The notes beneath the pieces are model-generated. The model did no database searches and was not told the DNA's origin. It was given only the letters and a program-made list of their open reading frames with translations. Source: an uncultured Hellea sp. (GTDB taxonomy: Bacteria > Pseudomonadota > Alphaproteobacteria > Caulobacterales > Maricaulaceae). From it: DNA of 39,533 nucleotides. The stretch covers positions 1-39,533 of the forward strand of contig CAJQGR010000077.1 of NCBI GenBank assembly GCA_905477785.1. The letters run 5' to 3'. The position numbers were made by a program, and so were the translations under genes. Below, one piece after another: positions 20,488 to 25,638 of this stretch. Numbering within the stretch: position 1 is the stretch's first letter; every line of letters starts with the position of its first letter.

Positions 20488-21066
20488 TCAAGCATAGTTG
20501 TCTGATAAAATCTTTGAGAAAATATAATGATCTTCCCAATTACCATTAATTTTTAAATTCTTACGTAAAATTCCTTCTTCTTTGAAACCCAAAGCTTTAA
20601 GAATAGAAATAGATGGAGCATTTTTGACCATAACCGCGGCTTCTACTCTATTTAAAGACAACTCATTAAAGCAATAATTTGTAACTGCTAATACAGCTGA
20701 TTTACCAAAATTTAAACCGGAGTATTCTTTCCCAATCCAATATCCAATTTTTGCTGTCTGCGATATATTTCTTTGAATATCTAAAATATTACAAACACCT
20801 ATCATTCGTTTATCTTTCGAACGAAAAACATAAAAGGGCAGAGCTTTTCCAAGGCGGGCCATCTTATTATAACTTTTTAATCTCGTTAAATAATGTTTTT
20901 TCACTAACTTAAGGTTGTTGAACTCTGGTTCCCAAGGCTTCAGATATTCTTGATTATGTTTTCTTAAACTAACCCATTCATTAAAATTTGATTTAACAGG
21001 CTGACATAAAACTACCGATGCTCCGCACCAATTACCCTCTAGAGTAATATTTTTATTAATTTTCAT
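20488..21066 (-). CDS. GNAT N-acetyltransferase, RimJ/RimL type
   Basis: Acetyl-CoA-dependent N-acetyltransferase of the RimJ/RimL branch, 192 residues; the natural substrate (often an N-terminal amine of a ribosomal protein) cannot be told. Visible features: LRKHNQEYLKPWEPEF near the N-terminus (typical LxxWxP-like region), IGYWIGKEYSGLNFGKSAVLAVTNY with the acetyl-CoA-binding loop, and a C-terminal NAPSISILKALGFKEEGILR motif. The start overlaps the 3' end of surf1 by 11 nt, placing it last in the oxidase assembly operon. RimJ-like genes after surf1 may be only positional. Confidence 0.85.
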   Translation of the reverse strand: MKINKNITLEGNWCGASVVLCQPVKSNFNEWVSLRKHNQEYLKPWEPEFNNLKLVKKHYLTRLKSYNKMARLGKALPFYVFRSKDKRMIGVCNILDIQRNISQTAKIGYWIGKEYSGLNFGKSAVLAVTNYCFNELSLNRVEAAVMVKNAPSISILKALGFKEEGILRKNLKINGNWEDHYIFSKILSDNYA

Positions 21067-21793
21067 TATAGAATTTTAGCCTACCTGCCCTGTGATGAAT
21101 AATTAAATATATTATTAGTAAAATAATTGCAAAACTATACCATGTAAGCATGTAATCCATATGATTATTTCTAATATCCGGCCTCATTGCTTTCAAGGAA
21201 GTGTTACTGAGACTCGTAGATTTAACATCAATATAAAATCTCATATCAGCATCAATATCCGCTAAATCATTCCACCCATGACTATCTGGCAATTGATTAA
21301 AACCAAACCACCTATTTTCTTCAGGAGTATTTTTGGGTGCACCTGTTGTAACTTCTCGTGCTAATCTAACATAACCAACGATTGGTAAGTTATTTCTGTT
21401 TACATAGTTTTTGTATCTTAATTTATCACTATCACTAATAGTCTCAAGGCTAGCAAACACTGTAACGCCTGAGCTGGTAATAGGTTTAAATACTCTCCAA
21501 TTTATATTCCTATTTTCTGCACTAAAAACAAAAAAGTGAGAGCTAGAATTTTGACTACTGCTGGTTAGAATTATACGACGAAAATCAACCGGAGACGAAC
21601 TAGAAATGGCTTTTTGTACTTCTTCTAGTGAGGAAAATGGTTCAGAAACTGCCGCACTTTCAACTTCAGCAAGCAATTTAGTTTTCCATTTGAGGCGTTC
21701 GTACTGCCATGTTCCAAGATTAATAAGAATTAATAAAATAGAGATCACAATGACTGTTAGCCATGGCATAGGATTAAAGTGTATTTTCCTCAA
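21056..21793 (-). CDS. SURF1 family cytochrome oxidase assembly protein
   Basis: Inner-membrane factor for heme a insertion into subunit I of aa3-type oxidase; 245 residues. One membrane helix at the N-terminus (about 10-27) and one at the C-terminus (about 215-235) flank a periplasmic domain, as in the family. Signature pieces are NLGTWQYERLKWK near the start and PEENRWFGFNQL, RPDIRNNHMDYMLTWYSFA near the end. Translation starts at TTG (21793), overlapping the stop of the tiny DUF983 remnant in TTGA. Third-last position in the oxidase cluster is normal. No obvious truncation. Confidence 0.9.
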   Translation of the reverse strand: MRKIHFNPMPWLTVIVISILLILINLGTWQYERLKWKTKLLAEVESAAVSEPFSSLEEVQKAISSSSPVDFRRIILTSSSQNSSSHFFVFSAENRNINWRVFKPITSSGVTVFASLETISDSDKLRYKNYVNRNNLPIVGYVRLAREVTTGAPKNTPEENRWFGFNQLPDSHGWNDLADIDADMRFYIDVKSTSLSNTSLKAMRPDIRNNHMDYMLTWYSFAIILLIIYLIIHHRAGRLKFYNEN

Positions 21794-21894
21794 AGGTCTA
21801 TCTTTGAAGATTTAACTTCACCACATTTAGGGCAAAGCCCCCTAAACCCTGTGGCAAATGGAGATAACCCTTCTCTGCTAATGAGCAGCTCCAT
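21790..21894 (-). pseudogene. DUF983 remnant (N-terminal zinc-knuckle only, 34 codons)
   Basis: Between cox3 and surf1 alphaproteobacteria usually carry a DUF983 gene of roughly 120-130 codons. Here a 34-codon frame remains (ATG at 21894, stop 21790). It overlaps the end of cox3 by 17 nt and the TTG start of surf1 by 3 nt. Its product contains SREGLSPFATGFRGLCPKCGE, which resembles the DUF983 N-terminus (GLxGRCPRCGEG), with one CPKC knuckle. The second Cys pair and both membrane helices are gone. The reading frame has no stop and has kept coupling overlaps with both neighbours, so it may be a short translated spacer or peptide rather than dead sequence. The family assignment rests on the motif plus the position. 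Confidence 0.65.
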
Positions 21895-22843
21895 TCATAG
21901 CAAATATGATGTATACAAAAGCAAAGAGAAATAACCAAACAACATCTACAAAATGCCAGTACCAAGCAGCTGCTTCAAAACCAAAGTGTTTTTCAGGTTT
22001 AAAGCCACCCTTCAGTAACCTCACCCAACACACGAATAAAAATATTGTACCTATTAAAACATGGAATCCGTGGAAGCCTGTCGCCATGAAGAAGGCTGAT
22101 CCATAAGCATTATTTCCAATCCAGGCCTCGTGACCACTTTCACGTAAATGAAATAACTCAGCATATTCGATCAATTGCAACCAAGTAAATATAACGCCTA
22201 AGGCTATCGTAAGGAATAATCCCCATTTTGCTCCTTTACGATCATTATGCATCAAAGCATGATGAGCCCAAGTAACAGTCGTTCCCGAAAGTAACAACAC
22301 CAATGTGTTCATTAAGGGCAAATGCCAAGGGTCAACTGATGTAACACCAGGGGCCATTGACTCTGCATAACCAGCTGCATTCTCAAGAATATCTGGATTC
22401 CAAGTAGCTCGTACCTTATGAAAAAGGCCTAATTCAAAAAACATCCAAAACCATCCAACAAAAAACATTGCTTCTTGCATGATAAACATAATCATACCGT
22501 AGCGCAGTCCAATGTCTACAACTGGAGTATGATCACCGGCTTCTGATTCAGCAGCTACATCTTTCCACCAGCCATACATCACATAAGCAGCAAATAGACA
22601 ACCAACCAAAAGGATTATCCATCCACCAGAGATTGAGCCGTCACCGATTAATGATGATTTTAAAGTATCTAATCCGTTGGCAAAAAACCATTCTGTCATG
22701 GGAGATTCGCCTGTTCGGTCAACTAGACCAGCAAAAAACGTAACCATTCCAAGTCCCCAGACCAATGCAGCACATCCAGATAAAAATGGCCACGGGCTTG
22801 GCGGTATTAAGTGATAATCGTGTTCAACAGCGTGACCGGCCAT
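21878..22843 (-). CDS. ctaE: Cytochrome c oxidase subunit III
   Basis: Membrane subunit stabilising aa3-type oxidase and its proton uptake, 321 residues, seven helices. The start MAGHAVEHDYHLIPPSPWPFLSG is typical; GAGG-like TTGAGG lies just before the ATG at 22843, so I reject the 8-codon longer frame starting at 22867. Other features: RYGMIMFIMQEAMFFVGWFWMFF with a conserved Glu, WHLPLMNTLVLLLSGTTVTWAHHAL, and GFHGFHVLIGTIFL and WYWHFVDVVWLFLF at the end. It follows ctaG after a gap of about 95 nt on the same transcript direction. Confidence 0.96.
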   Translation of the reverse strand: MAGHAVEHDYHLIPPSPWPFLSGCAALVWGLGMVTFFAGLVDRTGESPMTEWFFANGLDTLKSSLIGDGSISGGWIILLVGCLFAAYVMYGWWKDVAAESEAGDHTPVVDIGLRYGMIMFIMQEAMFFVGWFWMFFELGLFHKVRATWNPDILENAAGYAESMAPGVTSVDPWHLPLMNTLVLLLSGTTVTWAHHALMHNDRKGAKWGLFLTIALGVIFTWLQLIEYAELFHLRESGHEAWIGNNAYGSAFFMATGFHGFHVLIGTIFLFVCWVRLLKGGFKPEKHFGFEAAAWYWHFVDVVWLFLFAFVYIIFAMNGAAH

Positions 22844-22938
22844 AAATACCTCAAGATTTAAATGCACCTACGATTCGAAGATGCTTATTTCCATCATCCT
22901 ATAAACAAGGTCCGTGCAGCCTGCAATACTCTAGTGTG

Positions 22939-23817: not shown

Positions 23818-25638
23818 ATGGCTATTTCAAGACGTAAGCTTCTTAAATTCTCTTCAGCAGCAGCAGTATCATCATCAATAGCAACAAATAGTTTCGCAGG
23901 TTTACATGCTGACTCGATATCAGGCGAAGTTCTTTTAGAGCAAGCTACTAAATTCATATTATCTGCATATCCAGAAAGCGCTTCAAGCGCTGGTATTGAT
24001 AAAGGTATTAATAAGAAATTTAAATCTCAACTAACAGACCGGTCGATTGAGGGACAACTCCATATCAAAAAAAATATATTAAAATTACAGAAAAAACTTA
24101 AAAATGTTAGTTTAAGAAATGTTTCATCTGAAACTCAACTTAATTTAAAAGTTGTAAAATCAGTATTCGATTTGGCAGTAAAGGGTTTTGAATTTTCATT
24201 TGGTGATGTTGCGGTACTAAACCCTAATTGGTCTTATAGAAATAGTCCTTATATAGTTTCGCAGAATACTGGTTCTTATGTAGAAATTCCATCATTTTTA
24301 GAGTCATCTCATTCCATTCAAACAGCTCAAGATTCTGAACAATACATTGAACGAATGAAGTCATATGCTCATCAACTGAATGGTGAAACAGAAAGAGTAA
24401 GGCAAACTAATGTTACTTTACCTAACTTTTTAATGCAAAAAACAATTGCTCAACTCCAACAGCAAAGAAACAGTAATATCGTAGATTGGACTATTATTAA
24501 AAATTTGGCTTCAAAAGCTGATAAGAAATACCTTTCTGATGCCATCTTGGTCGCTAATGAAAATATAAAGCCTGCACTGGAAAATCAAATTAAGGCACAT
24601 ATCGCAAAAAATTCCCTTACAACATCGGATGCAGGTGTATGGGCTAAAAAAGATGGAGATGCATACTATTCATGGGCTTTAAAAGCTGGAACAACTACTG
24701 ATATGACTCCAGATGAAGTTCATGAAATGGGATTAGAAGAGCTTAAAGCATTACATTCAAAAATGGATCCTATATTGAAGTCAGTTGGATATTCGCAAGG
24801 TTCTGTGGGTGATAGAATGTTGGCATTAAGTAGAGATGACAGGTATTTATTTAAAAAGGGAGACCCCGGGCGTCTTGAGATAATGAGCTTTATTGATGAT
24901 GTCATTAAGGACATCAGAAACCGTATGCCCCAAGCCTTCAATACATTAGTACCAGGTTTTTTGGAGGTTACTCGAATTGCTCCAGAAATAGAAGCAGGTG
25001 CACCTGGTGCTTATGGTGGAGCAGGCTCTATCGACGGAACTCAGCCAGGTCATTTTTGGATAAATTTAAGGTCAACAAATCTGCATAATAAGTTCAACCT
25101 TGCAGATTTAACATATCATGAAGCAATACCGGGCCATGTTTGGCAAGGCGAATACACATTTAAACAACCTCTAATTCGTTCTCTTTTAGCATTTAATGCA
25201 TACTCAGAAGGTTGGGCGCTATATGCACAACAAATAGCTGATGAACTTGGTGTATATAATGAATTTCCAGCAGGACGTTTAGGCTACTTGCAATCTCTAG
25301 CGTTTAGAGCTTGTAGATTAGTTGTTGATACAGGTCTTCATGCTAAAAGATGGACTCGTGAAGAGGCAATTAATTGGTTTATTCAGAACAATGGATCAAG
25401 CTATGATGAAGTTCAAAGTGAAGTAGACCGTTATTGTGCCTGGCCAGGCCAAGCATGTGGCTATAAAGTGGGTCATTCTGCTATTAACAAATTAAGAGAG
25501 AATGCAAAATTAAAGCTTGGTACAAATTTTGATTACAAAAGCTTTAACGACACCTTAGTGCTTGGAGGAAATGTACCAATGACTGTTCTAAAAAATGAAA
25601 TAAATAGCTATATCAATAAACAAGTATCTAAAATTTAA
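23818..25638 (+). CDS. DUF885 family protein, predicted zinc metallopeptidase, Tat-exported
   Basis: 606-residue exported protein. The N-terminus [17 protein letters not shown] resembles a Tat signal, followed by an AxA-like site after ATNSFAG. The DUF885 domain covers most of the protein. Its zinc motif HExxH is in [16 protein letters not shown], with the downstream [16 protein letters not shown] providing the likely third ligand; [28 protein letters not shown] and [15 protein letters not shown] are further conserved pieces. Probably hydrolyses peptides in the periplasm. It lies on the strand opposite the oxidase genes and splits them, ending in a 4-bp convergent overlap with ctaB. It has the AT-rich composition of its neighbours, so there is no sign of recent transfer. 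Confidence 0.88.

Follow-up and report, generated by a model that had tools for sequence, protein, structure and literature searches.

The 39,533-nt window analysed here (positions 1 to 39,533 of contig CAJQGR010000077.1, assembly GCA_905477785.1, from an uncultured Hellea sp.) raises the question of what has become of a gene in its cytochrome oxidase operon, and whether the remnant still has a part in the translation of the next gene. DUF983 (PF06170), which is called COX4-like in excerpts from the literature, belongs to alphaproteobacterial COX operons, and the place between cox3 and surf1 holds a frame of 34 codons. The first-pass annotation had read this frame as a DUF983 gene shrunk to its first zinc knuckle that still links cox3 to surf1, either as a bridge for ribosomes or as a tiny metal-binding peptide. 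The reading preferred here is that DUF983 was disabled by one 282-nt in-frame deletion and that the stub most likely still hands ribosomes on to surf1, to which I give a probability of roughly 0.6.

Origin of the 34-codon frame

The oxidase cluster lies on the minus strand, and the ORF list of the window gives its order as cox1, ctaB, a short ORF, ctaG/cox11, cox3, the 34-codon frame and surf1 (Table 1). Pfam was run on cox3, surf1, cox11, the short ORF and the 34-codon frame; cox1 and ctaB were named from a reading of the sequence. The true start of cox3 is perhaps the ATG at 22843, with an anti-Shine-Dalgarno (anti-SD) pairing of -7.0 kcal/mol. A 606-codon ORF (23818-25638, plus strand) sits inside the cluster, opposite to the operon, between ctaB and the short ORF (cox11 side). 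The open frame of 34 codons, its overlap with cox3 and its TTGA overlap with surf1 are all present in the ORF coordinates as first annotated, and the frame translates as MELLISREGLSPFATGFRGLCPKCGEVKSSKIDL.

Table 1. Features of the cox3-surf1 region in the window, and terminator-like hairpins in the same spacer of three loci that have lost the gene (coordinates of the respective locus).
Feature	Position	Strand	Details and basis
cox3 (ctaE) ORF	21878..22867	-	Pfam COX3, E 2e-69
Relic ORF of DUF983	21790..21894	-	ATG start, 34 aa + stop; ORF list and sister alignment
Relic codons 1-26, old DUF983 N-terminal part ending ...CPKCGE	21817..21894	-	codon-by-codon match to G001 and G005
Relic codons 27-34 + stop, old C-terminal end VKSSKIDL-stop	21790..21816	-	sisters: IKSSEIDL-stop
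Deletion junction in the relic	about 21816/21817	-	in-frame joining after loss of 282 nt
CPKC, sole Cys-x-x-Cys left (codons 21-24)	21823..21834	-	sequence
Overlap of relic start and cox3 end, 17 nt	21878..21894	-	ORF coordinates
TTGA overlap of relic stop and surf1 TTG start	21790..21793	-	ORF coordinates; identical overlap in both sisters
surf1	21056..21793	-	TTG start without Shine-Dalgarno-like site; Pfam SURF1, E 1.5e-18
Terminator-like hairpin, locus L170	1465-1489		cox3-surf1 spacer
Terminator-like hairpin, locus L172	854-871		cox3-surf1 spacer
Terminator-like hairpin, locus L167	189-209		cox3-surf1 spacer

A cox3 search over 41 genomes gave a match in 40, and the closest relatives by cox3, G001 (96% identity) and G005 (97%), both carry a full DUF983 between cox3 and surf1, which bears out the annotated shrinkage of a gene that still links its two neighbours. 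From the cox3 stop to the surf1 start there are 366 nt in these two sisters versus 84 nt in the window. The difference of 282 nt (3 x 94) is the single gap in the alignment of this stretch, internal and in frame: in the window, ...FRGLCPKCGE runs directly into VKSSKIDL and the stop, where the sisters have ...RGACPKCGE or KGACPKCGE, 94 further codons, and then IKSSEIDL and the stop. Frameshift decay of DUF983 is ruled out by this collinear frame at both ends. The first-pass annotation had held that full-length genes in relatives, together with frameshifts in this strain, would speak against its reading; the full-length genes are there, but an in-frame deletion takes the place of the frameshifts. 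Its description of a gene reduced to the first zinc knuckle was right as to the knuckle, but the last eight codons and the stop have been kept too.

On this alignment the frame is a descendant of DUF983, collinear with the sisters at both ends and in the same place of the operon, and not a working member of that family. It resembles DUF983 in position, frame, stop overlap with surf1, and the first 26 and last 8 codons, and differs from it by a moved start codon and by the absence of the 94 codons into which the second knuckle and the hydrophobic body fall, the latter as judged from the sequence. The relic thus has one Cys-x-x-Cys (CPKC) versus two in the sisters (CPKC and C-x-A-C), and no PF06170 row was returned for it at a maximum E-value of 10, HMMER's filters dropping most matches above about 0.1. 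Because the zinc pair is halved, the hydrophobic body gone and the Pfam row missing, DUF983 function could not survive in the relic, and the protein's function is predicted to be gone at the operonic locus. The openness of the frame alone is unremarkable, since shuffled spacers bridge from cox3 to surf1 with a probability of 0.23; what makes the relic real is its codon-by-codon match to the sisters' DUF983. Pseudogenes with in-frame deletions occur in operons, where the deletion is internal, the frame is kept and the neighbours are intact, and the window's relic differs from these solely by its retained double overlap.

An assembly error that hides a whole DUF983 deserves mention for a draft genome of 92 contigs. 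The ends of the deletion have, by eye, about 3 nt (GAA) in common at the junction, which I judge too little for the usual collapse by a short-read assembler, and such an error is very unlikely.

The start of the frame has changed as well. The position of the relic's ATG is ACG in both sisters. Ahead of the knuckle their frame offers a single ATG, GTG or TTG codon, a TTG that lies two codons after the ACG and is CTG in the window; DUF983 accordingly starts 17 nt inside cox3 in the window and 11 nt inside it in the sisters. Both changed codons are shared with cox3; selection may have exchanged one start for the other, or the gain of the ATG and the loss of the TTG may each be due to chance.

Counting substitutions in the 29 retained codons outside cox3 (stop included), 15 are the same between the window and G001, with 8 synonymous and 6 non-synonymous changes; there are 10 and 7 versus G005, and 6 and 3 between the intact sisters themselves. 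The first 150 codons of surf1 gave 69 unchanged, 37 synonymous and 44 non-synonymous codons versus G001 (42 synonymous and 41 non-synonymous versus G005), and the last 200 codons of cox3 gave 85 synonymous and 5 non-synonymous versus G001 (70 and 4 versus G005). Erosion of the relic is therefore not above that of surf1, far above that of cox3, and slightly above that of the same codons between intact sisters. The higher non-synonymous share than between the sisters is, at these small numbers, a hint of relaxation, and the pattern agrees with either a recent deletion or weak constraint, which so small a sample does not tell apart.

Self-complementary DNA was noticed over the GLxGxCP codons, and a test by synonymous-codon resampling was then begun on the idea that these codons encode a conserved RNA hairpin still present in the stub. 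Folding of the window's own stretch gives -15.7 kcal/mol (z -2.0). A first set of 119 listed loci, many without DUF983, of which 49 were resolved by pattern, had a mean z of -1.04. The 24 loci assigned to the family, which served as the discovery set, reached -1.24 (se 0.29) versus -0.22 in cox3 windows, while the mean at this spot was -0.15 in 23 loci not assigned to the family and -0.56 in dispersed DUF983 copies (11 of 14 used). The hold-out, with a fixed window, comprised 48 new loci, of which 42, again from the family, were used (5 were unresolved by pattern and 1 contained N). Here the mean z was only -0.44 versus -0.32 in the rest of DUF983 and -0.19 in cox3 (Wilcoxon p 0.30), and a z of -2 or lower occurred in 5/42 versus 5.3% of baseline windows. 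Eight first-set loci rerun beside the hold-out, and excluded from it, ranged from -3.06 to 0.56 in the 7 that resolved (L016 did not). The failed hold-out rules out the hairpin as a family-wide element, and its retention in the stub is scarcely credible.

A second copy of DUF983 and losses across the family

The first-pass annotation had proposed a search for a full DUF983 elsewhere in the genome, and one was found: the one PF06170 match in the window's genome is full-length (G000:C80:24235-24489, E 1.6e-21), with neighbours that read as metX-like and kinase-like genes. Eight genomes of the genus have this second copy (G000, G001, G003, G004, G005, G006, G008 and G009), and a metX-like and/or kinase-like neighbour stands beside it in all eight, its DUF983 frame being known from coordinates alone in some genomes. 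Elsewhere in the family the neighbourhood also occurs in G010, G014, G017 and G024, and not in G016 or G019. Relocation of the operonic copy is ruled out by the neighbours kept in 8/8 genus genomes and by the coexistence of both copies in five (G001, G003, G004, G005 and G008). Judged by this neighbourhood, the second copy is older rather than moved, and it may make the operonic DUF983 dispensable. The conserved surroundings are contained in loci L152 (G000:C80:20500-28500) and L153-L161.

Among the matches listed, cox3 was matched in 128 of the 137 family genomes, the match in G149 being weak. Every suspected case of loss was read at the DNA level, which left 17 genomes without a full operonic DUF983: G000, G002, G006, G009, G014, G020, G060, G061, G063, G064, G069, G077, G078, G107, G123, G125 and G129. 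In 109 further genomes, again among the matches listed, the coordinates place a DUF983 match next to cox3. The deletion that left the 34 codons is known from one genome, the relic being found in no other of the 10 genomes in the genus or the 137 in the family (128 with cox3), among the matches listed.

In a cox3 tree built from 36 selected rows, of which 16 lacked operonic DUF983 (G064 was left out and G127 counted as having the gene), presence of the gene required 11 changes (bootstrap range 10-12), and well supported branches imposed 8 of these. Operonic DUF983 has been lost several times over in the family, with varied outcomes, and the losses are scattered, 173 of 500 label shuffles giving as few changes as observed. 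If the gene was never regained, the losses in the genus are three: the window, G002 with G006, and G009. This repeated and scattered loss favours an account in which the in-frame deletion had no selective effect, the frame stayed open by luck and surf1 needs no help for adequate translation; about 1 in 3 deletions is in frame by chance.

Several of the altered loci show features of their own. G127 (L176 / L197) has a full-length, open DUF983 in which the second knuckle lacks both cysteines and the first is altered; the gene may be decaying or may have taken on another role. The cysteines are retained in the close relative G126 (L184). In the 198-nt spacer of G077 (L171) a C-terminal piece of DUF983 alone remains, VVLGLAWRHDASEAKRSDMKQ. 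G020 (L016), G125 (L175) and G129 (L177) keep N-terminal relics with a decayed knuckle, and an inverted repeat TGGGCAC...GTGCCCA lies in the cox3-surf1 spacer of all three.

These loss spacers bear on the idea that the stub is a functional 34-aa metal-binding peptide, which the first-pass annotation had offered as its other possibility. CPKC has been kept in the window, and the non-synonymous share of the retained codons is not high. Against this, a single CxxC is left without the second knuckle and hydrophobic body, no Pfam family matched the frame at its cut-off, no similar stub was found among the family loss spacers read, and the knuckle decays in other N-terminal relics (GWCPNGF in G129, RTGAQMV in G020). 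A metal-binding role is highly improbable.

Translation of surf1

Under the preferred reading, ribosomes that finish cox3 would reinitiate at the start of the relic, translate its 34 codons, and then begin surf1 at its TTG through termination-reinitiation, presumably the route already used with the whole DUF983 gene. Ribosomes most likely still pass through the relic to surf1, because no stop interrupts the frame and no clear ribosome-binding site precedes surf1. The best anti-SD pairing there reaches -2.3 kcal/mol, close to a random median of -1.7, versus -7.3 for cox1 and prx, and the sisters' surf1 (-2.9 kcal/mol) has no SD-like site either. The missing site is no proof of coupling, since argS (-2.1), ctaB (-2.5) and gcvPA (-2.7) in the window also do without. 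I infer that the stub would be translated and surf1 would depend on it; continued coupling is plausible as an inheritance from the intact gene that includes the TTGA overlap.

According to excerpts of a study of six native gene pairs, reinitiation requires overlaps or very short distances, and a distance of ~20 nt nearly abolished it (PMC10666635). Excerpts of a second study state that an upstream premature stop abolished downstream translation in H. volcanii pairs, with E. coli less uniform (PMC6728339). As far as these excerpts go, the window is like such pairs in its 4-nt TTGA overlap, which lies within the 1-4 nt range for stop and next start, and in a downstream gene without an SD-like site; it is unlike them in that the upstream partner is a relic stub that begins inside cox3, with an overlap longer than the usual -4 or -1. 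Literature searches on surf1 coupling, and on in-frame deletions or gene remnants with coupling or pseudogenes, returned no title or abstract opening that describes this case, and searches on the family with genome reduction returned none.

The end of DUF983 lies <=4 nt from the surf1 start in 6/6 intact members of the genus, counting for L010 the ATG directly after the stop, a correction by hand of the TTG at +6 taken by the script. In the family at large the distance was <=8 nt in only 21 of 69 resolved intact operons (69/80 loci resolved), with surf1 starts that were set automatically and are rough.

All four genomes of the genus that have lost the gene (G000, G002, G006 and G009) have a frame that bridges the end of cox3 and the start of surf1. 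Family-wide, 18 loss spacers were examined, and such frames occur in 10 of the 17 over 20 nt, versus 3.3 expected by shuffling. Both counts speak against a frame left open by luck, but the family rows are dependent (G002/G006 and G063/G064 are near-copies), one of them (G127) holds a full-length gene, and the counting rule was chosen with the sequences already known. No bridging frame is left in seven family genomes that have lost DUF983 (G014, G060, G069, G077, G107, G125 and G129), none of them in the window's genus, and these favour neutral decay. Beyond the family, 51 of 80 genome-contig loci had DUF983 after cox3, and the remaining 29 gave no weak DUF983 match with a home-made profile at E 0.01. 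Seven of the 29 were left out with no surf1 seen next to cox3; of the 22 others, 1 lacked surf1 and 2 had spacers of <=20 nt. Among the 19 counted, one of which (L072) is by its tail sequence the family genome G063 and hence not outside, 6 had bridging frames versus 4.3 expected, no clear excess and again in line with neutral decay. Coupling as a general rule was set aside on this result and on the post hoc family count with its dependent rows.

Terminator-like hairpins were found in the cox3-surf1 spacer of three of the four loss loci scanned, G069 (L170), G078 (L172) and G061 (L167), and not in the fourth, G014 (L014); L167 had 3 such sites versus a shuffled mean of 1.7, which is near it. 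In the three hairpin-bearing genomes surf1 may be expressed separately, which also suits neutral decay, though G078 and G061 count as bridged. The spacer of the window itself is free of terminator-like sites. A neutrally decaying relic beside an independently translated surf1 is rather unlikely. A stronger form of the preferred reading would hold that in this genus the DUF983 protein is dispensable and the frame is not, that loss has been channelled into events that keep ribosomes bridged, and that the stub, like the frames of G002, G006 and G009, serves as a coupling leader selected for openness rather than sequence; this extension is improbable.

Overall, the window holds a real, well resolved relic made by a single in-frame deletion, with plausible coupling to surf1, and is a neat but modest case. 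The relic shows the loss of a widespread, uncharacterised gene of the cytochrome oxidase operon at an early stage and can be compared with intact sisters; in this family DUF983 has disappeared repeatedly, whereas cox3 and surf1 have been retained. Should the stub not couple surf1, this is ordinary gene decay; if it does, it would be a natural case in which to ask whether translation of the next gene constrains gene loss from operons.
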